Below are positions 24,370 to 40,621 of a stretch of DNA of 54,709 nt, one piece after another. The stretch comes from Lentisphaerota bacterium. GTDB lineage: Bacteria; Verrucomicrobiota; Lentisphaeria; Victivallales; UBA1829. The position numbers were made by a program, and so were the translations under genes. The stretch covers positions 1-54,709 of the forward strand of contig SUWI01000006.1 of NCBI GenBank assembly GCA_015061565.1, read 5' to 3'. Under the pieces are notes generated by a model. That model ran no database searches and had not been told where the DNA came from. It saw nothing but the letters and a program-made list of their open reading frames with translations. Every line of letters starts with the position of its first letter. Position 1 is the first letter of the stretch.

Positions 24370-26757
24370 TTATTCAGACCGTCTGCGCTGCATTATCTTG
24401 CGGGCGTAAACTTTCCCTTTCGGCAGAGACAGTTCGAATTCCGCCAGTCCGCGGCCGGTCACCTTCACGGTTCCCCCGGCCAGGGATTTGATCCGGAACT
24501 GCGTGATGACGCCTTTTTTCATCACAGCGGAAACTTCGAACCCGCCCTGGGCGAGGAAACGGGTGAAACTGCCGGTAAAATCATCCGGAACGCCGGGAAA
24601 CAGGCGGATGATCCCGCCATGACTCTGCAGCAGCAGCTCCGAAGCGATAAACAGGAACGCACTGTTGCCTTCCTGCACCGCGGGCGCCAGCCGTTTGGCA
24701 TCGGGATTCGATGTGACGCAGGGCGGATGCGGAATGTCCGGATCCGAGAACAGCAGTTGTTTGCCGTGACTGTCCCGCCGTCCGCGTCCGATCAGCCGCC
24801 AGTTGCGTTTTTCGTTTTTCTCCGCCTCGGCCGGGTCCCCGATCAGGACCGGATTATGACAGAACAGACCGTTTTCCTTGGCGAAGAGCTCCAGAAAACG
24901 CAGAGCGGACTCCCAGCCTTTTTTCCGTTCGCCGGCGCGCAGATAGGCTTCCGTGACCAGAAAGGCGCTCCAGTCGTGGTTCATGTGGAATTTCCCGCTG
25001 CAGTCGGCAAAGGAACGTTCGATGGCATCCGTTTCGATCAGCCGGATGGTCTTTTTCAGCGTCCTGACATCGTCCGTGATCTCCGCCGGGAAGGCGGGAT
25101 ACAGCAGATGTCCGCCGTAGAAATAGTGATCCGGCGGCACATCCGGTCCGCACCAGAAAGCCCCGTCGGGCGTTTTGGGGATCGGCGGATAATGCTCCAG
25201 CAGATCTTGCCAGGCCGACAGGTATTTGCTGTCCTTTTTCAGAATGACTGCCGCTTCGATGACCGTCTCCAGCACCTGTTTGAACAGCGAGGTGGTCGCC
25301 AGCTCATCCCGCGTCAGGGTGAAGATTTCCGGCGTGACGCTCCAGTCCAGGTGGTAGATGCCGTCCGTTCCCTTGCGGAAGATATGCTGATAAAAGATCG
25401 TGAATTCGCGGAGCAGCGGATAGATTTTTTCCCGCAGCAGTTTTTCATCGCGGGAATAATGCCACACCTGCGCCAGGATCGTGCCGGTATACGCGCTGCC
25501 GCACAGGGAATAACGGTAGGAGCGAGTGGGATATTCCAGCATCAGCTGATTGGTGACCAGGGGAAAGAAGATCCCGTCGCAGCCGAAGAGTTTCCGGGTA
25601 TGTTTTTTCAGCTGGCGCATTCCGGCGAAAAACGTATCCGCGAGCGCCTCGATCAGGAAGACCCGGTTGGTCGGGAAAAAGGCCAGCGCGGGGATCTGGG
25701 AATTCTGGTCGTTGGTGTAACCCTGACTGGCCAGGCCGGGATTGCGTTCATCCAGCGGCCCGTAACTCATGCCGTTCAGACCCGGCATCGGCGTCTTGCC
25801 GTAAATGCAGGCGATCTCATACAGACTGAAAGTGTAATACTTCTGGATCTGCCGGTATTTCCCGAAATCCGCATACGCGTTGTCCCAGTAACGGTGCCAG
25901 AATTTCAGGTTTTCCTTTTTCCAGTGCTCGTAACCCTTATCCGCTCCGCGGACGGCTTCCGCCAGTGCGGCGGCAAGCGGGTCCTTTTCATGCAGGGAAC
26001 TTTTCACCGCGAGGAAAAGATCGAAATCGCCATGCTGCGTCATTTCCGTTCCGGTGAAAACCGTACTGCCGGGCAGGGCGGGACCGCCGCCGTTCCGGGG
26101 ACAGAGCTTCATCGCCACGGCATACGAATGCCTGCCGCCGGGCAGCTGCTGCGTGAACGCCAGCAGATTTTCTTCCTTCCGCTCCCATTTCACTTCCGGG
26201 AGCAGGCTGTTCAGCGGGCGGATCAGTTCCAGACAATGCGCCCGTTCGGGATGTCCTTTTTCAGTCACGCGCATGCAGCACAGGGCTCTTTCCCGCGGGA
26301 TGAACATTTCTACGGCTGCATCCAGTCCCTGATACTGGATTTGTTCTTCCAGAATGCCATCGAACAGGGAGAGATGCCGGCTGACCCGGGGCATGCTCGG
26401 CGCACTCCAGCCGCAGCCCTGCCAGAAACGCAGCCGCAGGACGGCCGCGCTGATCGTGTCTTTCTGCCGTTTCCCTTTGGCTGGCGCATTTTCCGCTTCC
26501 GTCAGGAAATGCGTGTTTTTCGGGTTCATGGAGGCGATCCGGCGGAGAAATTCCTCATGCGGCAGGATTTTTTTCACCATCGCTTCTTCGGTCGTCGGAT
26601 CAAACACATCGACCTTGTTGAAGACCCATTCCAAGTGGGACGGCACATAGCCGACGGCGCACAGATCTCCGTTGCCCAGCAGAAAGCCGTCGCGGAAATC
26701 CGTTCCGCTCCGGTCGGAAGAAAAATCCTGTTTGCGGATCAGTTTTTCAATATTCAT
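24370..26757 (-). CDS. GH95-like glycoside hydrolase
   Basis: The 795-residue protein has an N-terminal beta-sandwich ('DGFLLGNGDLCAVGY' near 23-37), a central helical barrel (about 290-640) and a C-terminal sandwich. Its 'LLLQSHGGIIRLFPGVPDDF' and 'GGFEVSAVMKKG' blocks match the conserved end of GH95 proteins. GH95 includes alpha-L-fucosidases and alpha-L-galactosidases; the substrate here is not proven. No signal peptide is visible, so it is probably cytoplasmic. It is the last gene of the cluster, and its start overlaps the preceding gene by 4 bp (ATGA), indicating translational coupling. Confidence 0.75.
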   Translation of the reverse strand: MNIEKLIRKQDFSSDRSGTDFRDGFLLGNGDLCAVGYVPSHLEWVFNKVDVFDPTTEEAMVKKILPHEEFLRRIASMNPKNTHFLTEAENAPAKGKRQKDTISAAVLRLRFWQGCGWSAPSMPRVSRHLSLFDGILEEQIQYQGLDAAVEMFIPRERALCCMRVTEKGHPERAHCLELIRPLNSLLPEVKWERKEENLLAFTQQLPGGRHSYAVAMKLCPRNGGGPALPGSTVFTGTEMTQHGDFDLFLAVKSSLHEKDPLAAALAEAVRGADKGYEHWKKENLKFWHRYWDNAYADFGKYRQIQKYYTFSLYEIACIYGKTPMPGLNGMSYGPLDERNPGLASQGYTNDQNSQIPALAFFPTNRVFLIEALADTFFAGMRQLKKHTRKLFGCDGIFFPLVTNQLMLEYPTRSYRYSLCGSAYTGTILAQVWHYSRDEKLLREKIYPLLREFTIFYQHIFRKGTDGIYHLDWSVTPEIFTLTRDELATTSLFKQVLETVIEAAVILKKDSKYLSAWQDLLEHYPPIPKTPDGAFWCGPDVPPDHYFYGGHLLYPAFPAEITDDVRTLKKTIRLIETDAIERSFADCSGKFHMNHDWSAFLVTEAYLRAGERKKGWESALRFLELFAKENGLFCHNPVLIGDPAEAEKNEKRNWRLIGRGRRDSHGKQLLFSDPDIPHPPCVTSNPDAKRLAPAVQEGNSAFLFIASELLLQSHGGIIRLFPGVPDDFTGSFTRFLAQGGFEVSAVMKKGVITQFRIKSLAGGTVKVTGRGLAEFELSLPKGKVYARKIMQRRRSE

Positions 26758-28706
26758 TTTTCAAATACGACCATAACATAGCCCTGGATCAGCGGCAGCG
26801 TGACTTTGCAGTAGCCGTCCTCAACCGTAAACGGCAGTTCCTGCTTCGACGGAGCCAGATAGACGCGGCGGAACGGGGTCCCGTCGATCCGCAGGCAAAG
26901 TTCCGTATCGACCAGTGTCCCGCGTTCTTCCAATGCGACCGCTTTGCCCCGCAGTTCCGGCGTATAAACCATTACGTGCAGCAGTTCCAGATTGTCTTTA
27001 TACTGCACGAAAGCGCGCGAATAACTGGGCAGAGTCGCCGATTTGAATTTCGGGTTCGGCAGGAATTTTTCGATGATGTTCCGCAGCAGCATTCGGGTCT
27101 GATACGGCGACCGGGCATAATAGCCTTCGAAGATCTTGCCGCTGCAATAGGCGATCTTGCCCTTGAAGGACAGGAACGGCGAATCGGTTTTTTCCTGCGG
27201 CGGCGTGTACCAGTTGGAGTGGATCCCGTCCCAGGCGTGGTTATGATACGGCTTGACGCTCCAGATCGCCGTTTCGCTGCCTTCCGCCGGCCGGACTTCC
27301 GTGCCCAGTGCATACACGGACAACGGGAATTTCGGCAGGTCGCGGGAGCATTTTTCTTCCGGCAGATAGTAGAGCGGATCATGCGGCGTCGGCCCGATGT
27401 ATTTCACCGGCCAGGAGTCGATCACAAAGCCTTTCCCTTCCGGATCCAGACCGGAATTTGCGGTCGCGATCACGGCTCCGCCTTTGGCCAGATGAGCCTT
27501 GACCCGGCGGGTGACTTCCTCGTTGAAACGGACATTGTCCGGGAAGATCAGCAGATCATAGCTGTCCCACTTCGAAGTCTCATTCACCACATTGAACTGC
27601 AGTTTCAGCTCGGAAAGCATCCGCACCGCGGATTTCAGCACGCTGTCCGACCGGAGCGCTCCGCCGCCCGTGCCGTAAACGATGGCGACCGCCGGACGGT
27701 TGACCGCGTCCAGACACCACGGATCGTATTGCCGGACCGTTCCATACACTTTGCGGATCAGATCGAATACTTCCGGATAGATGTCTCCGCGGGGGTGGAA
27801 ATGGTCGCTGACCTCGGGACGCATGCCGTTGGCCATGCCGTAGAGCAGGTCGTATTCCAGACTTTCCTCGCGGCGCAGTCCGCCGAAATCGCCCCAGTGA
27901 TAAAAACGTCCGGTCATGCAGAGCACCGAATTGTCCCCGGCGATCGTCCGCAGATAATGCGCCTGGACCGGGAGATAGTCATAACCCAGTTCCATGCAGG
28001 GCGGCAGGCATTCGCATTCCAGATGGGTGTTATATCCGATCATTTCCTCCGCCCAGGCGCCGTTCAGGAAGAAGAAGAGATCCGGGTTGATCGACTTAAT
28101 GAGCGCATGCAGTTCCCTGGCCAGCTTCAAAATGGAATGACGGGTGAATTTCGTGATGTCTTCCTGATTCCGGTAATCGAATCCGAGCCGTTTCATTTCC
28201 GTTACGCAGGTCGGGCAGATGCAGGTGTAATAAGAACACATGCAGTCGAAGAAAAAGCCGTCGACGGGATAATTTTCCGCCAGTTCGCGCACCATGTTTT
28301 TCAGATGTTCCCGGTACGGCGAATTGTAGCAGGCGGCCCGCATTTCCGCCGAGGGTCTCTGCTCGGTCATGGCGTGGCCGTCCGGAGCGATCCGCATCCA
28401 GCCCGGATTGCGCAGCAGTTCCTCATCGCTGAGGCCGCCGTTGAAATACGCGCTGACCCGGATCCCTTTCCGGTGGCAGGATTCGGCGATCTTGCCCAGC
28501 AGGTCGAACTGCAGGGACGGATGACGGTAGCCGAATTTGGTGTTGTAGTAGGCATTACCCTGGTTGCAGCGGGCATGCCAGGTCAGGAAATCGATCCCGC
28601 ATGACTGGAGATTGTCGGTGAATTTTTCCACATCGAAATTTGCCCCGACATCCGGGATGACTGTGCTGGTGTGGAAATCGTAGAAAATCGAATATTTGGT
28701 TTTCAT
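26754..28706 (-). CDS. Putative TIM-barrel glycosidase (GHL6-like) with trimerisation-type domain
   Basis: The 650-residue protein starts with a barrel resembling hypothetical glycosyl hydrolase 6: 'FYDFHTSTVIPDVGANFD', 'LTWHARCNQGNAYYNTKFG', 'VSAYFNGGLSDEELLRNPGW' and 'VDGFFFDCMCSYYTCICPTC' (about 155-175, likely carrying acidic active-site residues). It continues with a Rossmann-like domain similar to the beta-galactosidase trimerisation domain ('WDSYDLLIFPDNVRF') and a C-terminal beta domain. No signal peptide is present. It lies 18 bp after the SGNH gene and overlaps the GH95-like gene. The activity is unknown but fits breakdown of fucose- or galactose-containing oligosaccharides inside the cell. 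Confidence 0.7.
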   Translation of the reverse strand: MKTKYSIFYDFHTSTVIPDVGANFDVEKFTDNLQSCGIDFLTWHARCNQGNAYYNTKFGYRHPSLQFDLLGKIAESCHRKGIRVSAYFNGGLSDEELLRNPGWMRIAPDGHAMTEQRPSAEMRAACYNSPYREHLKNMVRELAENYPVDGFFFDCMCSYYTCICPTCVTEMKRLGFDYRNQEDITKFTRHSILKLARELHALIKSINPDLFFFLNGAWAEEMIGYNTHLECECLPPCMELGYDYLPVQAHYLRTIAGDNSVLCMTGRFYHWGDFGGLRREESLEYDLLYGMANGMRPEVSDHFHPRGDIYPEVFDLIRKVYGTVRQYDPWCLDAVNRPAVAIVYGTGGGALRSDSVLKSAVRMLSELKLQFNVVNETSKWDSYDLLIFPDNVRFNEEVTRRVKAHLAKGGAVIATANSGLDPEGKGFVIDSWPVKYIGPTPHDPLYYLPEEKCSRDLPKFPLSVYALGTEVRPAEGSETAIWSVKPYHNHAWDGIHSNWYTPPQEKTDSPFLSFKGKIAYCSGKIFEGYYARSPYQTRMLLRNIIEKFLPNPKFKSATLPSYSRAFVQYKDNLELLHVMVYTPELRGKAVALEERGTLVDTELCLRIDGTPFRRVYLAPSKQELPFTVEDGYCKVTLPLIQGYVMVVFEK

Positions 28707-28724: not shown

Positions 28725-30359
28725 TTATTTCTGTTGATATAATTGCCATTTGAGCCAGGCGTAGAGTGTATCGCCCAGCTGATTGCCGCCGGCGGGCGCC
28801 GGATGCAGCCCGTCCTTCGGCATGATCTGTTTTTCCGGGTTTCCCGCGTTGACCGGATAGGCCTGCATCGGGAAATTATGCTCGCAGTCCAGATTGTGAT
28901 ACATCGGGATGATGCGGATGTTTTTGTCGGTTCCGTTCCCGTATTTGCGCATGATCCGGTCGCTGAGCATGAAGCGGTTTTTCGTATACTGGTATTTGGT
29001 CTGGCCGCAGCGGTAGATCCGGCCCATGCCGTCCTGATTTGCGCACGGGGTCGGCAGTCCGATGCCGATCACCGCATTCGGTGCGGCCTTGCGGAATGCC
29101 GCGATCAGTTTATCCATGTTCTGCTCGATCCCATGCAGGCTGCTGTAGATCCGGAAATCGTCCGATCCGAAGATATCGTTGACCCCCAGCTGGATGGTAA
29201 TGAAATCCGGCGCTTTGCCGCCGTGGTTTCCGGTCAGATAGCCGGGCACATCCAATTCCGGTTTCCCGTTCAGGATCTTGACGAACGGGCCTCTTTCCAG
29301 AAAGTGCCCCCACGTCCAGCCGGCATAGCCTTCGTGCGCCATGCCGCCTTTCTTTACCGGCGCGGGACGCGTCCCGATCATGGTCAGTTCGGGATTTCCC
29401 GCCTTGGTGAACAGTGCATGGACCTGGGCGGGGAAGGTGGTCACTTCCGTGATGCTGTCGCCCACCATCAGCAGCGAGATCTTGCGTCCGCTGCCGGCAT
29501 CTGCCGGGGCGACGCAGAGCCGGACCGTCTTTTTCGCGACCAGCCCGTTTTCACCGATCACCCGCAGCGTCCAGGGATGGATCCCGACATCCTTTTTCGT
29601 CGGGGTGAAACTCCATTTCCTTTTGAAATTGTTTCCCTTGCGGCAATCGATATCGAACACGTAGGAATCCGAGTTCACGCTCAGGAAGACATTGTCGAAA
29701 TAGATGTTGGTTTCAACACCCTCGACGGCATAGACCGTATCCGGCAGGACCAGACGGTGCTGCAGCGGCGGAATCCCTTTCCGGATCTCCGGCGAGGCGA
29801 TCGGCGAACTGGTGTCCGGCTGATCTTTGATGACTTCGCAGGAAAAATCCGAGATTTCTCCTTCCGCTCCCGGATAAACATAAGCACAGACATAACCGAC
29901 CGCGGGCAGCTGCTCGGGTGCAAGATAGCCGTCGCCGTAACGGCCCAGGATCTGGACGTTTTCCAGCACTTCCTTTTTATCCGGCGAATCCACTTTGAAT
30001 TTTTTGCCGGGATAAGTTCCGCAGTAGGCTCTTTTAGACCCATACAGATGAAATCCGATCTGGACGGTGCCTTTGCCTTTGAATGAAGCTTTCACCCGCA
30101 CGGTCATATAGTCCGACGGGGTGAAAACATCGGTCGTCTGGATCATCACGATCTGTTTCGGTTTATTGAACCGGAAGGCGTTCTGTTTTCCGTCCTGGAT
30201 ACAGGTCACATCCGTTTTGGCCGAGGCGCGGATCTTCCAGTTCTTGAGTGTCCCGTTGGCTTCCGTCCGGATCGGGACCGGGATTTCGGCGGCGATGCCG
30301 GACAAGGCTCCGATCAGGATCGGAAGGATCCAGATTTTTTTCTTGCAGATGCAGTTCAT
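28725..30359 (-). CDS. Secreted SGNH/GDSL hydrolase with N-terminal beta domain
   Basis: The 544-residue protein has a signal peptide (about 1-24), a beta-rich N-terminal part (about 30-285) and a C-terminal SGNH hydrolase domain: block I 'VGDSIT' (299-304, nucleophile S302), block III 'LGVND' (391-395) and block V 'DGLHP' (516-520, D516/H519). Such modular enzymes often remove acetyl or other ester groups from polysaccharides. Within the cluster it probably deacylates the glycan before or during cleavage. AAGGAAG precedes the ATG. It follows the GH16 gene by about 70 bp on the same strand. Confidence 0.8.
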   Translation of the reverse strand: MNCICKKKIWILPILIGALSGIAAEIPVPIRTEANGTLKNWKIRASAKTDVTCIQDGKQNAFRFNKPKQIVMIQTTDVFTPSDYMTVRVKASFKGKGTVQIGFHLYGSKRAYCGTYPGKKFKVDSPDKKEVLENVQILGRYGDGYLAPEQLPAVGYVCAYVYPGAEGEISDFSCEVIKDQPDTSSPIASPEIRKGIPPLQHRLVLPDTVYAVEGVETNIYFDNVFLSVNSDSYVFDIDCRKGNNFKRKWSFTPTKKDVGIHPWTLRVIGENGLVAKKTVRLCVAPADAGSGRKISLLMVGDSITEVTTFPAQVHALFTKAGNPELTMIGTRPAPVKKGGMAHEGYAGWTWGHFLERGPFVKILNGKPELDVPGYLTGNHGGKAPDFITIQLGVNDIFGSDDFRIYSSLHGIEQNMDKLIAAFRKAAPNAVIGIGLPTPCANQDGMGRIYRCGQTKYQYTKNRFMLSDRIMRKYGNGTDKNIRIIPMYHNLDCEHNFPMQAYPVNAGNPEKQIMPKDGLHPAPAGGNQLGDTLYAWLKWQLYQQK

Positions 30360-30430: not shown

Positions 30431-33400
30431 TTATTTTTCCAACTGGAAATCCAGGTAAGAATAATTGAAAGCCCCGATGGCGATCAGTTTGACGACATGT
30501 CTGCCCGCGGGCAGTTCGATCCCGTCCAGAGTGGATTTCAAGCCGCCCCAGCCCGTTCCGCCTCCGTTGGGCAGCTGGAAAGTGCCGATCAGTTTCCGGT
30601 CGTCGAGGATCATCAGCATACTGCCGCCGAACCCGTTCGGCGCACCGTAATCCATCGTCACCTTGTAACGGCCGGCTTCCCGGATGTCCACCGTCAGGTT
30701 GACCCATTCGCCGGTGAGCACATGTCCGATCACCGCTCCCGTTGCGTCCACTCCTTCATTCACGCGGAATCCCGATTTCTTATTGGCATTCACTTTGTCA
30801 TCCAGATAAGCGACTCCGTTGCCGCCTTCATCATACAGGCAGGGATTGATTTTTCCCGGAATGACCTGCGCTTTGCCCTGATAGGGCGTCGATTGTTTTT
30901 CCGGACGGGTCATCTTCATGACCACCTCGCTGTTGGCGACCTTGCCGGCGGCGTCCTGCACAAAGATCGAATAAGCGTGCAGAACCGCTTTCAGATTCGG
31001 TTTTTCGCGGGAACGGCCGGTCCGCATGTAGTTCGTTCCGGAATAATACTTCTCATCGATGGACACCGTGAACTTGTAAGGCGGTTTGTCTTTGTAATCG
31101 ATGATGCAGCCGCTGTCGAAAAGATACGCCGCTTTGATCGGCAATTTGGTCTTCGGATTGGGAGAAGCGACCGCTTCGATTTCGAATTTCTCGCCCGGGG
31201 CGATCAGCAGCCGGTCGTCTTTTTTCTTCAGCCGGACGACCGGATCCTTGTCATGCGGGTACGCCCAGTAACGGACATAATCCACTTTGAAAACATCGGG
31301 GAATTTTCCCTTGGATTTGATCGGCTGTCCTTTGCCGTACGGAGCGCGCACCGTTCCGAATAAACTGATCCGCAGCGGAACAAAACCATTCCGGTGGGTC
31401 AGGGCATCGTAAGTGACCGTCTTGTGCGGACTGTGGTTCGCGGTGGATTTGATCGCTTTGCCGTTCAGATAATAGGTGATTTCGAACGGCGTCCATTTGC
31501 AGCCGATCGTGTAGAAATCTTCCAGCGAGCCGGGGATCAGGGAAACATAGTTCCAGCTTTTCATGACGCGGCCGACAAATCCATGGAAATTGAAATCCAG
31601 CAGCGGACGTTCTTTGGTGACGTAATAATCTTCATAGATGTCGATTTCCATGCCGTCCAGAAACGAGTTGCCGGTCTGTCCGCCGTAAAGCCAGAAAGCA
31701 GTGTTCCAGCCGTTGTGGCGGCGGAAACGCAGTCTCGCCTCGAAATAGCCGTATGGAAAATGTTTGATGGTCGAGATCGCCCCGGAGCGGTAGCAGACCA
31801 TGTCTTTTCCTTTGGCCTTGACTTTGACCGGAGTGATTTCCAGCATGCCGTTCCGCACCTTGACCGCAGCCGGTTCCCCGGTCCGGAACCAGATTTTCGG
31901 ATCCAGTTCGGTGCCGTTGAATTCTTCATCCAGCACCAGTTTCCAGCCGGCTTTTTTCGGATCGAAGGTCTGATCGATCCGGATATCCATCGGGATGACT
32001 TTTTTGATCTGTTCCGGCATGGCATAACCGTAGCACCAGTCATCGGCCGTCAGCTGGATTTTCCCGCCGCGGTCGGCTTCCAGAATGGCTTCCGCCTGAA
32101 AAACCTTCTCGTCGATCCCCGCAAAAAACGAACTCTTCCCGGAAAAAGACTGCACGGAGGAATCAGCCAGAGTTTCCAGAATGATTTTGAAATCGCCGAT
32201 CGCATTGACGGCAAACATCAGATCCAGGGGAAAAAGTTTCCCCGGACAGGAAAAAGTCTGCACGGTTTTATGGTTTTCGCTGACCTGGATCGTCAGCTGG
32301 TCATCCGGTTTCCGGATCAGTTCCAGAACCATGTCTTTCCCGTTTTTCGGATCGAGAAAACGGTAGGACAGCTTTCCTTCATCACCCTCGAATTTGACCA
32401 GCCGCTGGGTCATGGAAAACATTTTTCCGGAAGCGATTTTCGGCATGGTGAATTCGGTGCGGCCCGGGGCGAAAACCAATTTCGGCGCCGCCGTGTAGAC
32501 AGCCTGACGCGATGGCCCGACCAGGGCATAACTGTATTCGCCCTGGATGACTTGAGGGGCTCCGGCGCGTTTCGTTTCCGCGTTTTCGAAATCGTCTTTC
32601 CAGAGTTCTTCGACCATGCGCAGCGCCTGGCCGTTCCAGCGGAGCTGATCGGGTCCGCCCAGCGCCAGGATCGCACTGCCGGCGCCCGTCACATACTTGA
32701 CCGCGAAAATATTTCTGCCGCGTTTCAGCCGGACCGTGGCCTTGTGGTCGGTGAGGCGGGGCGGATGGAGCGTGTTGCCGACCTTGAGCGTATCGATGAC
32801 CGGTTTCCCGTTCACGTTGACCTGCATCCACCAGTCCGCGCCGGCTCCGATCGTATAGTCCTCGTCTTTATCGCAGTCGACCGCCGCGTAAAGCCAGGCG
32901 CAATTCCCCGAACCGTATTCCAGCGGTCCGGGACCGGGAAAGTCGTTTTTGAAATCGTGTTCCCCGGCGGAAAACTGGATCTTGCGCGGCTTGACGCCGT
33001 TGAGCTCGGCCGGGATCTCAGTCAATTCTTTTTCCGTGGGCGAATAATTGCGGTCCATCGGCAGGAAAGCGGTCCAGATGTTCGGAAACCGGGCCGTTCC
33101 CGCGATCTCGGCCTGACGTTCCAGACTCAGGGACCGCACATAGATATCGGCATCTTTCTGCGTCCCGAACATGCAGATGACCGAGGTGGTCGGCCAGTTG
33201 TCCGCCAGATCGTTGACGGTGAATTCGACTTTGACTTTCTGCCAGTCGGCGGTCACCGGAAAATCCTTGATCCCGATATGTCCCATCCATTTCTTCTGAT
33301 GATAAGCCTGGACCGTGAAAACGCCTTTTCCCGTGCCCCGGACTTCAGCGTAAAGGATGATCTTGTCCCCTTTCAGCGCAAGATGTTTGGTGTAGCAGTC

Positions 33401-33634
33401 GAAACGGCAGCCCCCAGATCCCTTCACGTCGAAGATGTGCAAGACCTTCTTTCCGTTTTCTTCCGGGAATTCCACTTTGGGCGCAGGAGTAAATCCGCGC
33501 AGCTTGCTCAGATACCACCCCGTCGGCAGATGATGTTTCGGATTGATCTTCGACACATCCATAATGGTGATCTCATCCGCACCGAGTCCCATGAACAGAC
33601 TCGTCAGGAGTGAAAGGAAAAGAAATGTTTTCAT
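30431..33634 (-). CDS. Large secreted GH16 glycosidase with accessory domains
   Basis: The 1067-residue protein has a signal peptide (about 1-18), beta-sandwich modules (about 25-560), a GH16 domain (about 562-795), an Ig-like module (about 796-910) and a C-terminal CBM6-like module (about 920-1067, 'LTVDIREAGRYKVTMDYG'). The GH16 catalytic motif is E663-x-D665-xx-E668 in 'GMEIDIYEDY', the beta-bulge form found in laminarinases, agarases, porphyranases and carrageenases. It should be an endo-acting beta-glycanase working outside the cell. ATG 33634 is preferred over the upstream 33649 because AAGG precedes it and the signal peptide follows directly. The exact substrate (galactan or beta-glucan) cannot be read. 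Confidence 0.82.
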   Translation of the reverse strand: MKTFLFLSLLTSLFMGLGADEITIMDVSKINPKHHLPTGWYLSKLRGFTPAPKVEFPEENGKKVLHIFDVKGSGGCRFDCYTKHLALKGDKIILYAEVRGTGKGVFTVQAYHQKKWMGHIGIKDFPVTADWQKVKVEFTVNDLADNWPTTSVICMFGTQKDADIYVRSLSLERQAEIAGTARFPNIWTAFLPMDRNYSPTEKELTEIPAELNGVKPRKIQFSAGEHDFKNDFPGPGPLEYGSGNCAWLYAAVDCDKDEDYTIGAGADWWMQVNVNGKPVIDTLKVGNTLHPPRLTDHKATVRLKRGRNIFAVKYVTGAGSAILALGGPDQLRWNGQALRMVEELWKDDFENAETKRAGAPQVIQGEYSYALVGPSRQAVYTAAPKLVFAPGRTEFTMPKIASGKMFSMTQRLVKFEGDEGKLSYRFLDPKNGKDMVLELIRKPDDQLTIQVSENHKTVQTFSCPGKLFPLDLMFAVNAIGDFKIILETLADSSVQSFSGKSSFFAGIDEKVFQAEAILEADRGGKIQLTADDWCYGYAMPEQIKKVIPMDIRIDQTFDPKKAGWKLVLDEEFNGTELDPKIWFRTGEPAAVKVRNGMLEITPVKVKAKGKDMVCYRSGAISTIKHFPYGYFEARLRFRRHNGWNTAFWLYGGQTGNSFLDGMEIDIYEDYYVTKERPLLDFNFHGFVGRVMKSWNYVSLIPGSLEDFYTIGCKWTPFEITYYLNGKAIKSTANHSPHKTVTYDALTHRNGFVPLRISLFGTVRAPYGKGQPIKSKGKFPDVFKVDYVRYWAYPHDKDPVVRLKKKDDRLLIAPGEKFEIEAVASPNPKTKLPIKAAYLFDSGCIIDYKDKPPYKFTVSIDEKYYSGTNYMRTGRSREKPNLKAVLHAYSIFVQDAAGKVANSEVVMKMTRPEKQSTPYQGKAQVIPGKINPCLYDEGGNGVAYLDDKVNANKKSGFRVNEGVDATGAVIGHVLTGEWVNLTVDIREAGRYKVTMDYGAPNGFGGSMLMILDDRKLIGTFQLPNGGGTGWGGLKSTLDGIELPAGRHVVKLIAIGAFNYSYLDFQLEK

Positions 33635-33685
33635 GTTGCCTGCCTTCATTTGATTTGATGGTCGTGCCGGGATCCGGCAGCTTTT

Positions 33686-36600
33686 TCAGCGGTAGGTGGA
33701 AAATTCCGCCGCAAATTCGAACTTGCCGTCCGGTTTCAGCGTTACCGGATTGTAGATCCATTCGATGGTGGCGGTTTTCAACCCGCTGTAAACGAAGTAG
33801 CACATCAGCTTGGACAATTCGGCTTTAGCCTCGATCCCGAGCTTGGGTTTCAGGAAATATTGCCGGATTTTGTCGCCGTTGCTGGTCACCGGATAGCAGG
33901 ACCGCTTGATATCCGCGGTGAGCTGTCCGCCCGGGACCGGCAGAAATCCGTCGGATTTCGTGCGTTCCAGACGGATGAATTTGCCGTCGGACATATAATC
34001 GACCGTGCAGCCGTCGAGCATATTCGGCGCATCGCCGGGATTGAAGACATTATGGAGCCGCGGGATCAGCGTCATGGCATTTTTCCCCTGGTTCCGCAGT
34101 TCGATCCTGACCTCGAAACCATTGGCGTTTTCCGCGATGGAATATGTCTGGCGGACCAGAATGGGCGCTTCGGACATTTTCCTTTCCGCGGTCACGAAGA
34201 CCTTGCCGTTTCTGATGCCGGCATCGACGATCCTGACCGGTTTCGCCGAGCTCGAATCCCGCCGGATCGAGGCCGGTCCCCAGAACATCAGCTGAGCGAA
34301 GGAATTCCCTTCGGCACGCATGGAGAGACCGTTGAATTTCCAGTCGATCGGATTGCCGCCGCGGGACAGGTCAAGAAACAGCGAATGGTTTTTGTTGGAG
34401 AGGACCGCGTCCAGTTCGCCGTCCTGATTGGCATCCCCGTAAGCGAGTTCCAGATTTCCCGATTTCACCGGCTGGAAGCTCATGCCGGAGGAATTCTTCC
34501 GCAGGTATTCGGCTTTATGATTTTCGAACTGCTTCTGCATTTCCTGCTGGTCCGGGGCAAGCGGAGCGGAACCGATGTCCTCGGAGATCTCCAGCAGACA
34601 GGCCTCCCGGGGCCCGGCATGGACCAGGAAACTCTGCGTGTCGGCGGACAGCGGATAGATCTTCTTCTGTGCATGATCCAACACTTTTCGCTTGCCGAGC
34701 GGCTTGTCCAGCTTCACTTCGGCAAAAAGATTTTCCGTGGGATCGAAGTTCAGGATCACCACGGCCGTTTTGCCGCCCATGGTCCGGATCACGGAACGGA
34801 AACTCTGGCTCCAGCGAGGTGAATCGATCTCGGTTTCCTTGCCCTGGACTTGGACCTTGACCGAACGGTAAGGCAGGGCGCGGGCAGAAATATCCGAAGC
34901 CGGTTTCCCTTTCAGAAAATAATCTTCCAGCGCGGCGATTTCCGCCATGGCCTGATTGGCGGCGACGAAAATCTTGCCGTCGATCCAGTTGCCGGGGAAG
35001 ATCGCGAAACCGCGGCAGCCCAGGGCTCCGGCGGAGAGCATTTCCAGGCGGAATTGCGCCGGGGTCAGCAAGTCGGCTTTAGTCTGGTAATAGCAGACGG
35101 AATCGACCGCACACATCGGCACATACGGTTTCTTTAACGTCTGACGGCCTGATTTGATCAGGTCGAACATTTTGGCGTCGTGCTCATGGTAGTAACTGAC
35201 GATATGCATATCGAGCAGCGATTCGTTCAGGACCGGATCCTTGGCTACGCCGTAAAGTCCGTTGCGCCAGTCCGGCTTGGTAAAATCGAAATGATAATCG
35301 TAATCGCTCAGCTTGGAGCCCGGCAGATTTTTCCGCAGCACATTCCGGACCAGTTCGATCGTCTTGAATCCGTGTTCGCAGCGGAAATCCCGCCATTTTT
35401 CCCCGTATTTCGAGAGGATCGTCTTGCCGTCCGGAACTCCCGCGATCCCGTATTTTTTGGCAAACGCCTGACGGCAGCGTTCGCAGAAACACCAGCGCGA
35501 GGGATAAAAATCCTCATTGTCCATGAAGAAATAGTCACCCGGCTCCAGTCCGTCCCTTTTCAGCTGGTTGGCATATTCCTGTTCATAGGCTTTCCGGACC
35601 GTCGGATCGTTCAGGTAGAGTTCCGGACAGACCCACGGCATCTTTTTCCCGTCCAGGTCGCGGGCGGCGCCGTCGATTTTCAGATATTTGGGAAAATGGA
35701 CAAAGTTATTGCCGCGTCCGTCGATGGTGTAAAACTGCCATTTGATTTTTCTGGCTTTAAAGATATCGTTGATCTCGCCGGGAAATCTGAACTGACGCCA
35801 GGTGTAGCCGCATTCTTCGAGATGCTTGAGGGAGGCGATCAGGCATTCCCGGTTATGGATATACAGGGACTCGCTTTCCCAGCGCATGAACTGGAAATGC
35901 TTCGGGTTCGGCAGTTCTGCCATCGGCGGCAGAAAATTCAGCGTGAAAGCCTCTTCCGGACCGGCCATGCCATCGTTTTCATAGTGCCAGTAAACCTTGG
36001 AGGAAGGCTTCACCTTGTTCGGGTCTGCCGGCATGAACACCACGGCCATGGCTCTCATATAGGCGCCCGTCGGCTTGATGTCCCGCATGCCGCGCGGATA
36101 AACGAATTTCCAGCGGAGGTAACGTCCTTCTTTCCGGGTCAGCGGAGTGACAATGGCCTTTTCCGAAGGGGTTTTTATGGCTCCGGGATGCGGAAACCAG
36201 GCGTCGCCGATCCGCACCTCTTCCGGCAGGTCAAAATAGATCGCCGGGTTTTTCAGTTTCGACTTGATCCCTTTGAAATAAACTGCCATCGCCGTCGGGC
36301 TGTCCGCAAAGGTATTGAACTCGTAATTGCCGAAACGTTCCCGGGAGGTGTCGACCGGGACAATGCGGCAGCTCAACGCTTCCGGTGCCAGCTCGGCCGC
36401 CTTGCCGCTTTTGTCTTCGGTGATGGTCACACCGTCAAACCACACCGTTCCGCGTCCGGTGTTGAGCAGCAGGATGCGGACTTTCCCTTTTTTGGGCAGG
36501 ACGATCGAATGGGTGACCCGGCTCCATTTGGTTTGGGTCGACGGTTTGCCCAGGGTTTCCTTGATGGGTATGCCCGCGTCATTCAGCAGTTCGAACCCGA

Positions 36601-37423
36601 CGGCCGCGCGCCCGGGATCCTTGCATTTCACCCAGGAAGTGATCTGAATGGCCTTGCCCATGAGTTCCTGCGGTACTTCGAAAGCGAATCCCGATTTCTC
36701 GGCGCCGCTCTTCCACTGCTGTCTGGCAGCCGTAATGAACGCCGGACCGTTGGGCACTTTCTCTATCTTGACTTCGGAGACATTTTCATTGCCGTCATAT
36801 TTTTTCTCAGTCCAGCCGGCAGGAAGTCCGTCGGCCTGCACCGGATCGGAAAATAGTTTCCGGATCAGCAAGGCATCTTTGAGCACTTCCGCCTGAACAT
36901 TGTCGAACCAGTAGGTTCCCGTTCCGCAGGCCCGGAAGGACAGGGTCAGGGAGTCGGTCCCGGGATAGACCACAAACTCTTTTTCGATCGTTTTCCAGGG
37001 AAATGATTCCCGGTCGTATTCGAAAACATGATACTGGCTTGCCGCCGGCAGTTTGGCGTTCATCGTCAGGACCGGATAGAATGTCCCGGATTTGATCTCG
37101 CCCGCCGCCCGGAAACGGACTCTGATCTTCATGGCTTCTTTCACGGACGGACGGAAGATGTGACCGCCCCAGATGATGGCGAGTTTCCGGTTGGAGACAT
37201 CCTTGATCTCCATCTTGATCGCGTGTTTCCCGGACGAACAGTTTTCCGAAGTCGACGTGACCAGGGTTTTCCCGCCTTGTCCGGCGGCGAAGAGCCATTT
37301 GTCGGCAAAACCGGTTTTCGGATCGATTATTTCAAAATCCGGATTCGGAAAAAGACTCTGCGCCGAAAGCGTTCCGGCCAGACAGAAAATTGCAAAAATA
37401 CCGCTGAAGGACGATGTTTTCAT
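33686..37423 (-). CDS. Giant secreted putative glycosidase with CBM-like modules
   Basis: The 1245-residue protein has a signal peptide (about 1-22), two jelly-roll modules resembling carbohydrate-binding domains (about 24-185 and 195-340, 'LFPNPDFEI' and 'TVWFDGVTITED'), a beta region (to about 500), a barrel-like domain (about 505-860) and C-terminal beta domains with an acidic 'GDANQDGELDAVLSN' repeat-like loop. The barrel contains 'YFFMDNEDFYPSRW' (near 631-644), with acidic residues at a strand end, and a cysteine-rich 'CFCERCRQAFAKKYG' loop seen in several unassigned glycosidase families. Activity is unknown. ATG 37423 follows GAGGG; an in-frame TTG lies 12 bp upstream. It precedes the GH16 gene in the operon. 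Confidence 0.7.
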   Translation of the reverse strand: MKTSSFSGIFAIFCLAGTLSAQSLFPNPDFEIIDPKTGFADKWLFAAGQGGKTLVTSTSENCSSGKHAIKMEIKDVSNRKLAIIWGGHIFRPSVKEAMKIRVRFRAAGEIKSGTFYPVLTMNAKLPAASQYHVFEYDRESFPWKTIEKEFVVYPGTDSLTLSFRACGTGTYWFDNVQAEVLKDALLIRKLFSDPVQADGLPAGWTEKKYDGNENVSEVKIEKVPNGPAFITAARQQWKSGAEKSGFAFEVPQELMGKAIQITSWVKCKDPGRAAVGFELLNDAGIPIKETLGKPSTQTKWSRVTHSIVLPKKGKVRILLLNTGRGTVWFDGVTITEDKSGKAAELAPEALSCRIVPVDTSRERFGNYEFNTFADSPTAMAVYFKGIKSKLKNPAIYFDLPEEVRIGDAWFPHPGAIKTPSEKAIVTPLTRKEGRYLRWKFVYPRGMRDIKPTGAYMRAMAVVFMPADPNKVKPSSKVYWHYENDGMAGPEEAFTLNFLPPMAELPNPKHFQFMRWESESLYIHNRECLIASLKHLEECGYTWRQFRFPGEINDIFKARKIKWQFYTIDGRGNNFVHFPKYLKIDGAARDLDGKKMPWVCPELYLNDPTVRKAYEQEYANQLKRDGLEPGDYFFMDNEDFYPSRWCFCERCRQAFAKKYGIAGVPDGKTILSKYGEKWRDFRCEHGFKTIELVRNVLRKNLPGSKLSDYDYHFDFTKPDWRNGLYGVAKDPVLNESLLDMHIVSYYHEHDAKMFDLIKSGRQTLKKPYVPMCAVDSVCYYQTKADLLTPAQFRLEMLSAGALGCRGFAIFPGNWIDGKIFVAANQAMAEIAALEDYFLKGKPASDISARALPYRSVKVQVQGKETEIDSPRWSQSFRSVIRTMGGKTAVVILNFDPTENLFAEVKLDKPLGKRKVLDHAQKKIYPLSADTQSFLVHAGPREACLLEISEDIGSAPLAPDQQEMQKQFENHKAEYLRKNSSGMSFQPVKSGNLELAYGDANQDGELDAVLSNKNHSLFLDLSRGGNPIDWKFNGLSMRAEGNSFAQLMFWGPASIRRDSSSAKPVRIVDAGIRNGKVFVTAERKMSEAPILVRQTYSIAENANGFEVRIELRNQGKNAMTLIPRLHNVFNPGDAPNMLDGCTVDYMSDGKFIRLERTKSDGFLPVPGGQLTADIKRSCYPVTSNGDKIRQYFLKPKLGIEAKAELSKLMCYFVYSGLKTATIEWIYNPVTLKPDGKFEFAAEFSTYR

Positions 37424-37459
37424 GGTGACCCTCAAAAAAATTAATAAATAATAAGAATA

Positions 37460-38350
37460 TCAATCTTCGAAACCGAGCATAGTGCCCAGCGGCCATTTCC
37501 CGGTTTCGGCTTTCAGCGCTCCGCGGGTGATCGGTTCGACATGGCCGTCGGAAAACGCACAGTTGGCAATATTGCCGTGCCGTTTCGTCGAAAATCCAAC
37601 CAGGTTTTCGTTGTAGATCCCGGTCAGCCCGCGTCCCATGGCATCCATTCCACCTCCGACATAACCCGGATCGCTGAAGTCGCCTTCGCTCGTGCTGGTG
37701 CCGCCGTCCTGGGAATCGGCCAGCAGCAGTTTCCGCCCCGGCGATTTGATGTTGGTGAATTTCATGGGAATCTGGCTCGCATACCATTCTTTGGTTTTTC
37801 CCTTGTTGTCATAAATGTATTTCCAGCCGCCGATGCACGAACGCGGCATCCCGTAATGGATATACCCGATATAAAACAGCGAATTGGACATGGCCGGGCA
37901 TTTCATGATCCCTCTCCGGTATCTGGCGGGAATGACTCCAAAACTGTGTTTGGTCAAATCCGAACAGAAATCCAGCGGGGAACCGATCCCCGGCATCAGG
38001 TAAGGCGAGACAAACCAGGTCCAGGGATGAGATTCCGGCCCGACAATACCCCGCAGTTCGATCCTGGACGGCGCCAGACTGGAATGGATCGCGAACGGAA
38101 CGATGATGTCGTTATTGTCCAATCCGTAATTGATGATGCCGGCTGCGACTTGCTTGATGTTGCCCTGACAGCTGGCTCTCTGTGCCGCCTGTCTGGCTTT
38201 GGCGAGCGCCGGCAGCAGCATTCCCGCCAGAATTGCGATGATTGCGATCACGACGAGGAGCTCTATCAGCGTAAAATGCATGATTTCGTGCTGCAGTTCC
38301 CGGTTGGTCTTTTTGCAGTTCCGCCAGCGGAACAAGGTGGTTTGTTTCAT
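37460..38350 (-). CDS. Pseudopilin-like protein (prepilin N-methylation domain, DUF1559-like)
   Basis: The 296-residue protein carries a class III signal, '[14 protein letters not shown]' (25-38), with processing expected before F26 and the conserved glutamate E30. A hydrophobic stalk and soluble domain follow, ending in '[14 protein letters not shown]'. The residue before the cleavage site is histidine rather than the usual glycine. Such proteins are heavily expanded in Lentisphaerota, Planctomycetota and Verrucomicrobiota and often lie beside secreted sugar hydrolases; a link to type II secretion-like export or surface display is plausible but unproven. It sits between the PHP-type hydrolase and the giant secreted enzyme. 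AAAGGAT precedes the ATG. Confidence 0.85.
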
Positions 38351-38368: not shown

Positions 38369-39613
38369 TTATTTTGGTTGTTTTTTCCTGTGCGTATTTG
38401 ATTTTTTCAATATATTCTTCTTAGAGGAATGGACCCAGACCGGACTGCTCCAGCACCATCTGCCGTCCCGGGTGACTGCCCTGATGTAATAACAGTCGCA
38501 TTCCCGTTCCGGACGACAGTCGAAAAACAGCTGATGGCCGTAATCCCGGAAAATGATGTAGTCCCGCTCGTTTTTGACCAGCGTGATCCGGTCAACCGGG
38601 GAATCGGCGGAAAAATCGAACCAGACCGTTCTGGGTTCTTCCGCCGGCAGCTCGAATTCCTTGCCCATATAATGTCCGTTGATCCGGAAATCCAGCTTCA
38701 TCCGTCCGCCCGTGAAACCGTAGCAGCGGCGGGCTTTGAGCGCTTTGAAAATGGCTGGCAGCGTGTTTTCTTCCGCCCAGACGCCGGTGATCCCGGGCCA
38801 GTCATTGCCGTTGACGGTCATCCCCGCATTTCCGGAATGGTCGTCGGAACCGGCGATGACGCCGGTTTTCCCGCCGTTCCGGAGAGCATCCTGCCAGCTT
38901 CCGCCTTCACACCAAGTGGTTTTCCGCGGGAACAGCGGATGATCGAAATATTCGGCACAGTCGCCGCGGGAGATGATCTCCAGCAGCGGGGGCATCAGTT
39001 CCGGCGGAATGGAATTGAAATCGCAGCCGGCGGAAAGCCGGTTGGTGTCATGCGGCACCAGCAGCAGGTCGGGCCGGTTAAGCCATTCGGCCAGCTCCGC
39101 CTTCGTGATCTCTCCGTCATGTTCGCCGCGGAGCAGCGATCCGGAATGATTGTCGTAATACACCACCAGATTGTTATACCAGGGATAGGAATCCCGTTCA
39201 TACGCGAGTATGGTCGTGAATTTTCCCGGCTGATAATATTGTTTCACTTTCTCCCGGATCAGATCCCATTTTCCGTCGTTCCAGAGTTCCGCATGGCCGA
39301 TCCCGCCGTGGTCGTGGTCGGTCAGCGCGGCAAAATCCAGTCCGGCACGGTCGCGGATATTCCGGAAATAGGCATCGATATCCGTTTCTCCGTCGGAAAG
39401 ATCGGTGTGTCCGTGCATTTCCCCGTAAAACAGCCGGTATTCCGGTTCGGGCGGATAAAATTCTTTTTCCACGCTGAAAACCTTGGCCGCCAGTCCGGTC
39501 GGATCCGGATTGACTCCGCTGTACACCAGATCGGTGAATTCGCGGCAGCGGCACGGAGTGTCGTACCTGCGCGCCGCGGATCTTTCCACATTCTGCATGC
39601 CGCCCGGTTTCAT
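38369..39613 (-). CDS. PHP/CehA-type metallohydrolase
   Basis: The 414-residue protein has a PHP-like metal site: 'GEMHGHTDLSDG' (64-75) with H67, H69 and D71, then 'LTDHDHGG' (97-104), 'LVPHDTNR' and a late 'GSDDHSG'. It resembles the CehA/McbA and DUF3604 group, whose members cleave phosphoester or related bonds. It lacks a signal peptide, although a C-terminal beta domain follows. It is the first gene of the polysaccharide cluster, divergent from AraC. The start is uncertain: ATG 39613 and an in-frame TTG 9 bp upstream share a weak AGAGAG site. The role in sugar breakdown is not obvious; hydrolysis of a phosphorylated or otherwise substituted sugar is one possibility. Confidence 0.75.
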   Translation of the reverse strand: MKPGGMQNVERSAARRYDTPCRCREFTDLVYSGVNPDPTGLAAKVFSVEKEFYPPEPEYRLFYGEMHGHTDLSDGETDIDAYFRNIRDRAGLDFAALTDHDHGGIGHAELWNDGKWDLIREKVKQYYQPGKFTTILAYERDSYPWYNNLVVYYDNHSGSLLRGEHDGEITKAELAEWLNRPDLLLVPHDTNRLSAGCDFNSIPPELMPPLLEIISRGDCAEYFDHPLFPRKTTWCEGGSWQDALRNGGKTGVIAGSDDHSGNAGMTVNGNDWPGITGVWAEENTLPAIFKALKARRCYGFTGGRMKLDFRINGHYMGKEFELPAEEPRTVWFDFSADSPVDRITLVKNERDYIIFRDYGHQLFFDCRPERECDCYYIRAVTRDGRWCWSSPVWVHSSKKNILKKSNTHRKKQPK

Positions 39614-39732
39614 GTGATCCAAAACTCTCTTTCCGTTTTCAAGTTCACCTTTTAAGACCCGAATTCCGCTGCTTGCAAGGAACGTTTTTTGCTCTGGTTC
39701 CCGATTTTTGAAACTCCATCCGGAAATACTGC

Positions 39733-39784: not shown

Positions 39785-40621
39785 ATGTCAAATCATCCTA
39801 AAGCAATGTCAAAAGATACAATAATAGATGAAATTGCTCCATTGGTCTGGGAACGGCAGGACCCCTTGCCGATGCCGGTGCTGGAAATCTGCAACTACAC
39901 CTTTCTGCAGCTGAATGCGTGGAATCATAAAAAGAATTTCGGCCAATACTGGCGGCTTTACTGGAATGCCGAAAAAGGCACCCGGGTCATTTTCCAGGAT
40001 AAAAATTATGAGATGAATGCCCGGAAGGTGTACCTGATCCCGTCCCATATTGCCACTTCGACGGAATTGGATCAGCCGGCGCCGCATTTTGCCGTGAATT
40101 TCAAAATCGGCGCCCAGTTCGAGAATGTCCGGCGGCAGATCTATGTTTTCAGTCCGGTTTTTCTGAAGCGGGCGCTGCGTCATTTCGGCTCCCTGACCGG
40201 GGAAATGTCCCGTCTTATGGTGATCCAGAGCATTGTTGCCCATTACCTCAGTATGATCCCGCCGGAGGATTTTACCGAATCCGAGCGGGAAAAGCTCGAT
40301 CCGCGGATCGCCCGGGCGGTGGCCATCATGGAAAGTGAACTCGCCAGGCCGATTGCCGTCGGCGAACTTTGCCGCCGGGTCAGCATGTCGCGGAACAATT
40401 TCTACCGTCTGTTCCTGGAAGAAACCAAGAAAACCCCTCATTTCTTCCTGTTCGAACTCCGGATGATCCGGGCGCGCTGGCTGCTGCGTTTTACCGGACA
40501 GTCCATCGATGAAATTGCGCTGGCCACCGGATATGCCGACCGGTATCATTTTTCCAAGGCATTCCGGATGTTTTACAATTGCCCGCCGATTCGCTACCGG
40601 CAGCGGAAATCCGGTAAATGA
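39785..40621 (+). CDS. AraC-family transcriptional regulator
   Basis: The 278-residue protein has an N-terminal sugar-sensing-type cupin region (about 25-120) and a C-terminal AraC DNA-binding domain with two helix-turn-helices. The first is 'IAVGELCRRVSMSRNNFYRL' (about 190-210) and the second 'SIDEIALATGYADRYHFSKA' (about 241-260), followed by 'FRMFYNCPPIRYRQ'. It is divergent from the seven-gene polysaccharide cluster and is its likely activator, responding to a breakdown product. The ribosome site is weak. An AAAACG/CGTTTT hairpin with a T-tract follows the stop. Confidence 0.9.
   Translation: MSNHPKAMSKDTIIDEIAPLVWERQDPLPMPVLEICNYTFLQLNAWNHKKNFGQYWRLYWNAEKGTRVIFQDKNYEMNARKVYLIPSHIATSTELDQPAPHFAVNFKIGAQFENVRRQIYVFSPVFLKRALRHFGSLTGEMSRLMVIQSIVAHYLSMIPPEDFTESEREKLDPRIARAVAIMESELARPIAVGELCRRVSMSRNNFYRLFLEETKKTPHFFLFELRMIRARWLLRFTGQSIDEIALATGYADRYHFSKAFRMFYNCPPIRYRQRKSGK

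Follow-up and report, generated by a model that had tools for sequence, protein, structure and literature searches.

What kind of enzyme is encoded by a large gene that profile libraries leave blank and that is found in what looks like a glycan-degradation operon? This question is raised by a locus of a Lentisphaerota bacterium (GenBank assembly GCA_015061565.1, contig SUWI01000006.1, positions 1 to 54,709 of the forward strand, the whole of which is called the window here), in which a 1245-residue open frame occupies positions 33686-37423 of the minus strand, with its ATG at 37423. It is probable that the product is a glycosidase and, taken as a whole, the protein is on balance best explained as a secreted multi-domain enzyme of this kind, from an uncharacterised TIM (triosephosphate isomerase)-barrel family related to the glycoside hydrolase (GH) families GH42 and GHL10.

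The gene, its product and its family

33686-37423, minus strand: gene of the window protein, stop codon at 33686-33688, homologues found
37429-37433, minus strand: GAGGG, resembling a ribosome-binding site and ending 5 bases before the ATG
37361-37423, minus strand: residues 1-21, a Sec-type signal peptide, read from the translation by eye
34820-35929, minus strand: residues 499-868, putative catalytic domain of TIM-barrel type, from profile links and low-confidence models

The window protein is a genuine gene product and not an artefact. Its ATG is preferred as the start to the upstream TTG at 37435, which would give a 1249-residue form, and stops were found on the plus strand of the same interval in a frame check. 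A preliminary description of this DNA had proposed a secreted enzyme candidate of this length here, and the open frame, the homologues and the signal peptide listed above bear it out. It had also placed the enzyme outside obvious glycosidase families, which holds for Pfam (best E 0.21) and NCBIfam (best E 0.061), where no match of note was obtained; the best hit among PDB sequences (E 0.036) was to an unrelated dynein light chain. It does not stand apart from all known proteins, however: its barrel has links to GHL10-scoring proteins as well as to GH42, and no CAZy or dbCAN comparison stood behind the statement that no numbered family fits.

On sequence evidence, the protein is a member of a conserved, divergent family of Lentisphaerae-type genomes, which carry several to many copies each. 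Its nearest homologues were matched at E 6.1e-145 (G048), 1.0e-104 (G041) and 2.1e-77 (G001), and its own genome holds seven single-sequence matches, the query included and thus six further ones. All genome searches sampled the phylum of the window: the single-sequence search detected the family in 20 of 61 genomes, the own one counted, and a 24-row profile (A3) gave matches in 73 of 288 genomes at E 1e-5. Since at most five candidates were scored per genome and the tail of these matches takes in GHL10-type proteins (L021, L023 and L024 are found in three of those genomes), the latter figure does not give the number of family members in the strict sense. A scan of genome contigs, with patterns representing only the subgroup of the query, returned relatives in 3 of 70 stretches, all from Lentisphaerae, and Lentisphaerae bacterium GWF2_45_14, GWF2_44_16 and ADurb.Bin242 are named loci with relatives. 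A plasmid search for relatives gave no match, and in three viral-contig scans none was detected among 55, 38 and 28 pattern stretches. In a 58-row tree the query falls in an 11-row clade (support 98/98), closest to L055 and L056 (100/100); the tree served to define this clade only, given a poorly supported root split (54/75) and a number of long branches. A literature search by family and organism names, the protein being nameless, retrieved no title or abstract on the family, which is not proof that none is in print.

Probable kinship of the barrel-like domain

The strongest link of the barrel leads to three proteins, L021, L023 and L024, that score against the Pfam GHL10 profile at 1.3e-23, 5.3e-21 and 8.3e-22, respectively, and that align with Cwp19 (5oq2) at E 3.9e-8. 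The A3 profile matched these three in hhalign local mode at E 1.2e-13 (probability 98.1, 159 columns, 0.59 for the reversed control) and in global mode at 1.2e-17 (reversed 0.24), and the profile of the query clade alone reached them locally at 1.2e-10 (reversed 0.11). A weaker link leads to GH42: the barrel profile matched 12 GH42 proteins at E 4.5e-4 (reversed 0.80), a single GH42 sequence was matched weakly at 3.7e-4 and PDB entry 3tts at E 0.034, with C599-P600, E637 and the CxCxxC motif in register, and the profile extended by the three GHL10-scoring rows matched the GH42 chain 9ta3 at E 0.0013. These links support a TIM-like barrel, apparently kin to the GHL10-scoring proteins and more weakly to GH42.

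Two ColabFold models were built from four rows each (the window protein and L036-L038), with mean predicted local distance difference test (pLDDT) scores of 53.2 and 46.2; their usable parts are the C-terminal domain and residues about 586-705 only, and no mechanism was drawn from them. The comparison with glycosidase barrels that had been proposed for this protein was made with the low-confidence model of residues 496-868, built with no templates. Its top VIA-align row was GH42 1kwg (Z 10.4), followed by PgaB (4p7o, Z 9.6) and further GH42 chains, and Foldseek returned 1kwg at E 4.3e-4; in the better part of the model, beta-4 ends at D635. The barrel-like domain of the preliminary description is therefore supported by profile links together with low-confidence models.

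A profile search for membership in a characterised family found no match of the query to PF02638 (GHL10), none up to E 1 to PF02449 (GH42) and none to the GH42 trimerisation domain PF08532, so that the protein belongs to neither family as defined in Pfam. That it works like a barrel glycosidase of the GH42/GHL10 kind is a better claim than membership in either. The query likewise had no Pfam match to GH18 (PF00704), and only the three GHL10-scoring relatives touch this family, at E 0.018 to 0.034. Kinship to GH123, raised by weak Foldseek rows (8k2g, 8p4l, 5l7r), found no support in the profile comparison: hhalign gave E 0.40 versus 0.93 for the reversed control, and PF13320 was not matched.

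Putative catalytic and zinc sites

35513-35521, minus strand: putative catalytic D-x-E (D635-N636-E637) where beta-4 ends, with E637 aligned to the GH42 acid/base Glu
35627-35629, minus strand: C599, fourth cysteine of a putative zinc site, 46 residues before C645
35474-35491, minus strand: CFCERC at residues 645-650, supplying three of the cysteines in the putative zinc site and aligned with GH42 CxCxxC
35189-35191, minus strand: Y745 on beta-6, at the active-site Tyr position of GH42 and GHL10 as suggested by alignments
35102-35104, minus strand: D774 on beta-7, candidate for the GH42 nucleophile position, alignment uncertain

Residues were counted over 56 rows, after exclusion of profile matches above E 1e-10, of the three GHL10-scoring proteins and of one duplicate (57 to 56). 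E637 is present in all 56, its alignment to the GH42 acid/base position being weak, and position 635 carries Asp in 49 rows and Asn in the other 7; when the three GHL10-scoring proteins are counted as well, position 637 is Glu in 57 of 60 and Ile in 3. Other positions are kept in most rows (F654 and W677, 55 rows each; D729 and E833, 52 each; D738, 51), D815 is kept in 36 rows and Y745 is Tyr in 43. All 11 rows of the query clade share D635, E637, Y708, Y710, D729, D738, S743, Y745 and D815. On beta-7, the Glu nucleophile of GH42 is not kept in the query, and the alignments offer no invariant carboxylate there: D774 takes the nucleophile position in one alignment and C771 in another, D774 being Asp in 33 of 56 rows and, counted by eye, in 8 of the 11 of the query clade. 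The full GH18 motif is D-x-x-D-x-D-x-E, of which the query has the D-x-E alone.

The motifs singled out earlier, MDNEDFYPSRW and CFCERC, were located at residues 634-644 and 645-650. The latter had been called a four-cysteine loop; the loop itself holds three cysteines, and the fourth partner is likely C599, which is Cys in 33 of 33 rows with a full CxCxxC versus 8 of the 23 others (Fisher 3e-8, relatedness ignored). By sequence comparison, C599, C645, C647 and C650 match the structural zinc site of GH42 and co-occur in the family, the zinc being putative. Gal42 of GH42 has Cys113, Cys153, Cys155 and Cys158, Glu148 as acid/base, Glu305 as nucleophile and Tyr275 (PMC8573354), and the zinc-site cysteines of BgaP are C115, C155, C157 and C160 (PMC12095705). 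The acid/base Glu of such enzymes precedes the second Cys by 5 residues (PMC8573354, PMC12095705), and one of these two papers states that not all of GH42 keeps the cysteine cluster. In the window protein, E637 sits 8 residues before C645.

Mechanism and competing explanations

In the mechanism considered here, the carbohydrate-binding module (CBM)-like domains would bind the glycan, a structural zinc would hold the loop after beta-4 and E637 would serve as general acid/base. D635 and E637 may then form a D-x-E pair for a substrate-assisted reaction on a 2-acetamido sugar, in the manner of GH18 and GH20. The target would be a fucosylated glycan whose other parts are taken off by the neighbouring fucosidases, the GH16 enzyme and the esterase, and the substrates are perhaps fucosylated glycans that contain amino sugars. 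The substrate-assisted step is put forward tentatively; the D635/E637 pair is favoured because no invariant carboxylate is found on beta-7, while position 635 keeps an Asp, or in a few rows an Asn. Cwp19 (GHL10) and PgaB (GH153) have N-acetylhexosamine polymers as substrates, and in both a single Asp at beta-4 has been proposed as catalytic; Cwp19 has a Gly at the beta-7 nucleophile position and an Asp at beta-4, and in PgaB catalysis probably depends on D474 (PMC5765458, PMC6016235, PMC5933820). Substrate assistance by D635 and E637 is therefore favoured.

Several observations weigh against a glycosidase of this lineage and mechanism. Low pLDDT (53.2 and 46.2) leaves the barrel without a reliable model. 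The three GHL10-scoring proteins came out of a search with the query itself, they carry Ile at position 637, and 15 standard GHL10 proteins showed no alignment with the family (E 0.67 and 0.70). The query-clade profile reaches GH42 at 0.0077 only, a single DUF4838 sequence scores close to the GH42 values (local E 0.0024), and an RNase H (4h8k, E 0.0088) ranks between two GH42 chains (0.0013 and 0.013); GH42 E-values of such size are not proof, because RNase H scores among them. As to the residues, the cysteine set C599/C645/C647/C650 is complete in 33 of 56 rows only, the middle residue of the D-x-E is Tyr, Phe or Trp in 36 of 56, unlike the Asn of GH42 (the query itself has Asn), and the Asn that 7 of 56 rows have at 635 is a poor fit for a substrate-assisted pair. 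The amino-sugar link, finally, is drawn from neighbours and distant relatives.

A bolder version of this reading, which we regard as possible but doubtful, is that of an undescribed family that kept a GH42-like zinc scaffold and the acid/base Glu and replaced the GH-A nucleophile, either by D-x-E substrate assistance or by an Asp nucleophile. An enzyme with two carboxylates of the GH-A type is unlikely: here E637 would be the acid/base and D774 on beta-7 the nucleophile, with Asp in place of Glu, or the base of an inverting reaction at longer distance. This is suggested by a second aligned stretch in 9ta3, in which 'LkkpvfpliDp' of the family faces 'LKKQPFLLMEQ' and D774 falls on the Glu of the 'ME' motif (as described in PMC8573354), by the Asp at 774 in more than half of the rows, and by the Y745-D774 spacing of 29 versus 30 for Tyr275-Glu305 of Gal42 (PMC8573354). 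However, that stretch scores 0.0 bits (2.5 bits in another run), D774 is not invariant even within the query clade, and the alignment at E 0.0077 sets C771 on the nucleophile position.

Non-catalytic barrels exist, and a glycan-binding pseudo-enzyme that keeps the pocket and does not cut would explain why no complete known catalytic pair is found in the barrel and would accord with the CBM-like and mutarotase-like modules; it is nevertheless quite improbable, as Glu at 637 and Asp or Asn at 635 in 56 of 56 rows, with W677, D729 and D738 in at least 51, are what is expected of an active site. A GHL10-like cell-wall enzyme, that is, a peptidoglycan lytic transglycosylase or hydrolase, could account for the profile link to GHL10-scoring proteins, as the glycan strands of peptidoglycan are the substrate of Cwp19 and DigH (PMC6016235, PMC12288456), but it is very improbable, considering the operon shared with GH16, fucosidase-like and esterase genes, six further matches in the own genome, more than expected of a housekeeping wall enzyme, the Glu at 637 in place of Ile and the missing link to the 15 standard GHL10 proteins.

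If the GH42/GHL10-related glycosidase with a replaced nucleophile were true, it would represent a mechanism change inside one barrel lineage, in a family expanded in Lentisphaerae-type bacteria, and a scaffold that resembles GH42 but lacks its catalytic pair would serve as a test case for such changes. Additionally, it would give a function to unlabelled genes near fucosidase-like, sulfatase and GH123 genes (few loci were viewed), in a barrel family of which the query protein receives no label from Pfam or NCBIfam.

Accessory modules

36866-37360, minus strand: residues 22-186, first CBM4/9-like module, by profile match to relatives only
36389-36865, minus strand: residues 187-345, second CBM4/9-like module, by profile match to relatives only
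35930-36388, minus strand: residues 346-498, beta-rich domain before LPP at 498-500, from the secondary structure of low-confidence model 1
34469-34819, minus strand: residues 869-985, a beta domain with linker that follows the barrel, from the secondary structure of model 1
33689-34468, minus strand: residues 986-1245 (about 990-1245), galactose-mutarotase-like beta-sandwich, a modelled fold

The two CBM-like modules of the preliminary description are retained by way of relatives and fail as a direct Pfam match: no CBM, PF02018 included, was matched by pieces of the query up to E 10. When compared with six N-terminal segments around L015, a five-row profile of residues 22-186 gave an hhalign E of 3.7e-14 (reversed 0.69) and a six-row profile of residues 186-345 one of 2.9e-7 (reversed 0.66). 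CBM_4_9 was matched in 6 of 15 family members scanned at E up to 1 (best 5.9e-9); among relatives viewed singly, only L015 exceeds the Pfam cut-off (36.9 versus 25.9 bits), with L012 (21.4), L042 (18.6) and L008 (17.6 bits, E 0.0051) below it. Two CBM4/9-like modules in residues 22-345 are thus supported, via relatives only. Further on, the LP of the LPP is conserved in the family, and N892 in the domain after the barrel is kept in 51 of 56 rows, the other 5 being gaps.

The claim of an acidic, repeat-like C-terminal segment had to be abandoned. Acidic residues make up 11.2% and basic ones 13.1% of the segment 986-1245, the highest-scoring self-match within residues 941-1245 reaches 25, which was equalled or exceeded in 8 of 20 shuffles, a single 23-base tandem repeat is the only one present, and the domain models as a galactose-mutarotase-like sandwich. 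The C-terminal domain (model residues 641-896) was superposed on 3mwx_A with Z 19.8 over 222 residues (root-mean-square deviation 3.0), its Foldseek E was 1.3e-9, and the same structural list contains the final domain of LacZ and those of GH38-type chains (7uft, 7ufr). The predicted domain has a galactose-mutarotase-like fold, by which mutarotase activity is not implied.

Apparent operon and neighbourhood

38369-39622, minus strand: DUF3604, CehA/McbA metallohydrolase-like, first operon gene (NCBIfam E 8.8e-21, score 74.6, below the cut-off of 80)
37460-38350, minus strand: prepilin-like (DUF1559), immediately upstream of the query gene (PF07596 E 1.8e-6, N_methyl 1.9e-4)
30431-33649, minus strand: GH16 protein of 1072 residues, 36 bases after the query gene (PF00722 E 4.5e-12)
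28725-30359, minus strand: GDSL esterase-like (PF13472 E 9.5e-8)
26754-28706, minus strand: alpha-L-fucosidase-like (GHL6 and GH42M), full-length relative of PDB 6tvk (E 1.6e-88)
24370-26757, minus strand: GH95-like (PF22124 E 1.6e-14; alpha-L-fucosidase 8zbv E 4.7e-11)
39785-40621, plus strand: divergent AraC-family regulator (PF12833 E 2e-22)

From 39622 down to 24370 the genes are co-directional, with gaps of -4 to 81 bases, the first gap depending on the choice of start, and the apparent operon runs in the order DUF3604, DUF1559, window protein, GH16, GDSL, 6tvk-like fucosidase and GH95. A promoter-like site (39785-39758, minus strand, 11/12) is found between the AraC gene and the operon. 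The adjoining GH16 gene, named as such from the start, was confirmed by its PF00722 match, and its GH16 part matched the kappa-carrageenase 9xkt at E 1e-8; the GDSL gene had no PDB sequence match at E 0.01. The Pfam label 'hypothetical glycosyl hydrolase 6' on the gene at 26754-28706 conceals a likely fucosidase, because the protein is a full-length relative of 6tvk, which we take to be GH151. The locus looks like a glycan-degradation operon, and a glycan role for the window protein is likely from its operon partners.

Around homologues, genes were scanned in part only. L111 (G226) has a divergent 6tvk-like gene nearby (E 1.2e-87), and L113 (G306), of the query clade, has a sulfatase further upstream, a DUF1559 gene directly upstream (L113:7355-8176) and a GH123 gene directly downstream (L113:12670-14316). 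A prepilin-like gene also stands directly upstream in L036 (L036:7148-7858), and GntR-type genes, GH42 and DUF4838 are found nearby in L114 (the region of L038). Among the two genes scanned at L112, fucosidase, sulfatase, GH123 and prepilin-like genes were not seen. Prepilin-like genes accompany 9 of 60 family loci; for three other families the figure is 2 of 42 loci, and the difference is not significant (Fisher p 0.12).

Outside the operon, the window carries a clear GH123 gene at 15088-16749 (E 3.1e-114), a family detected in 33 of 41 genomes and matched 38 times in G045. A NamZ-type exo-beta-N-acetylmuramidase gene is found at 51391-52548 (E 5.1e-64). The 484-residue product of 19106-20560 has no Pfam match at E 0.001 and in NCBIfam matches the anti-phage DNA glycosylase Brig1 weakly (E 3.3e-7, 30 bits versus a cut-off of 230).

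Comparison with known systems

Among more distant systems, GH18 and GH20 are brought to mind by the spacing of the D-x-E at the end of beta-4, which resembles the GH18 motif and is a lead only. The alpha-L-fucosidase 6tvk, a relative of which is encoded in the operon, shares a short cysteine stretch with the family (PDB search with A7, E 0.0036), in which, however, the D-x-E is not kept; the family profile matched the operon's fucosidase, as a single sequence, only weakly (local E 0.022). GH153, represented by the C-terminal domain of PgaB, is among the best structural rows of the low-confidence model, and a single carboxylate where its beta-4 ends has been proposed as catalytic, but its modules differ and no PgaB match appeared in the PDB sequence searches made.

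GHL10 (PF02638; Cwp19, DigH) shares the profile link via three Lentisphaerae-type proteins, the conserved Asp at the end of beta-4 and a D...Y on beta-6; the query differs in having no Pfam match and in carrying Glu at the second position past the Asp, which is Ile in the three relatives. Finally, GH42 (PF02449; 1kwg, 3tts) shares the TIM-barrel signal, the position of the acid/base Glu, the CP...CxCxxC four-cysteine signature and the beta-6 Tyr. Unlike GH42, the window protein has no Pfam match, no trimerisation domain and no nucleophile Glu, its family shows a D-x-E with a variable middle residue in place of N-E, and the protein adds CBM-like and mutarotase-like modules to the barrel.

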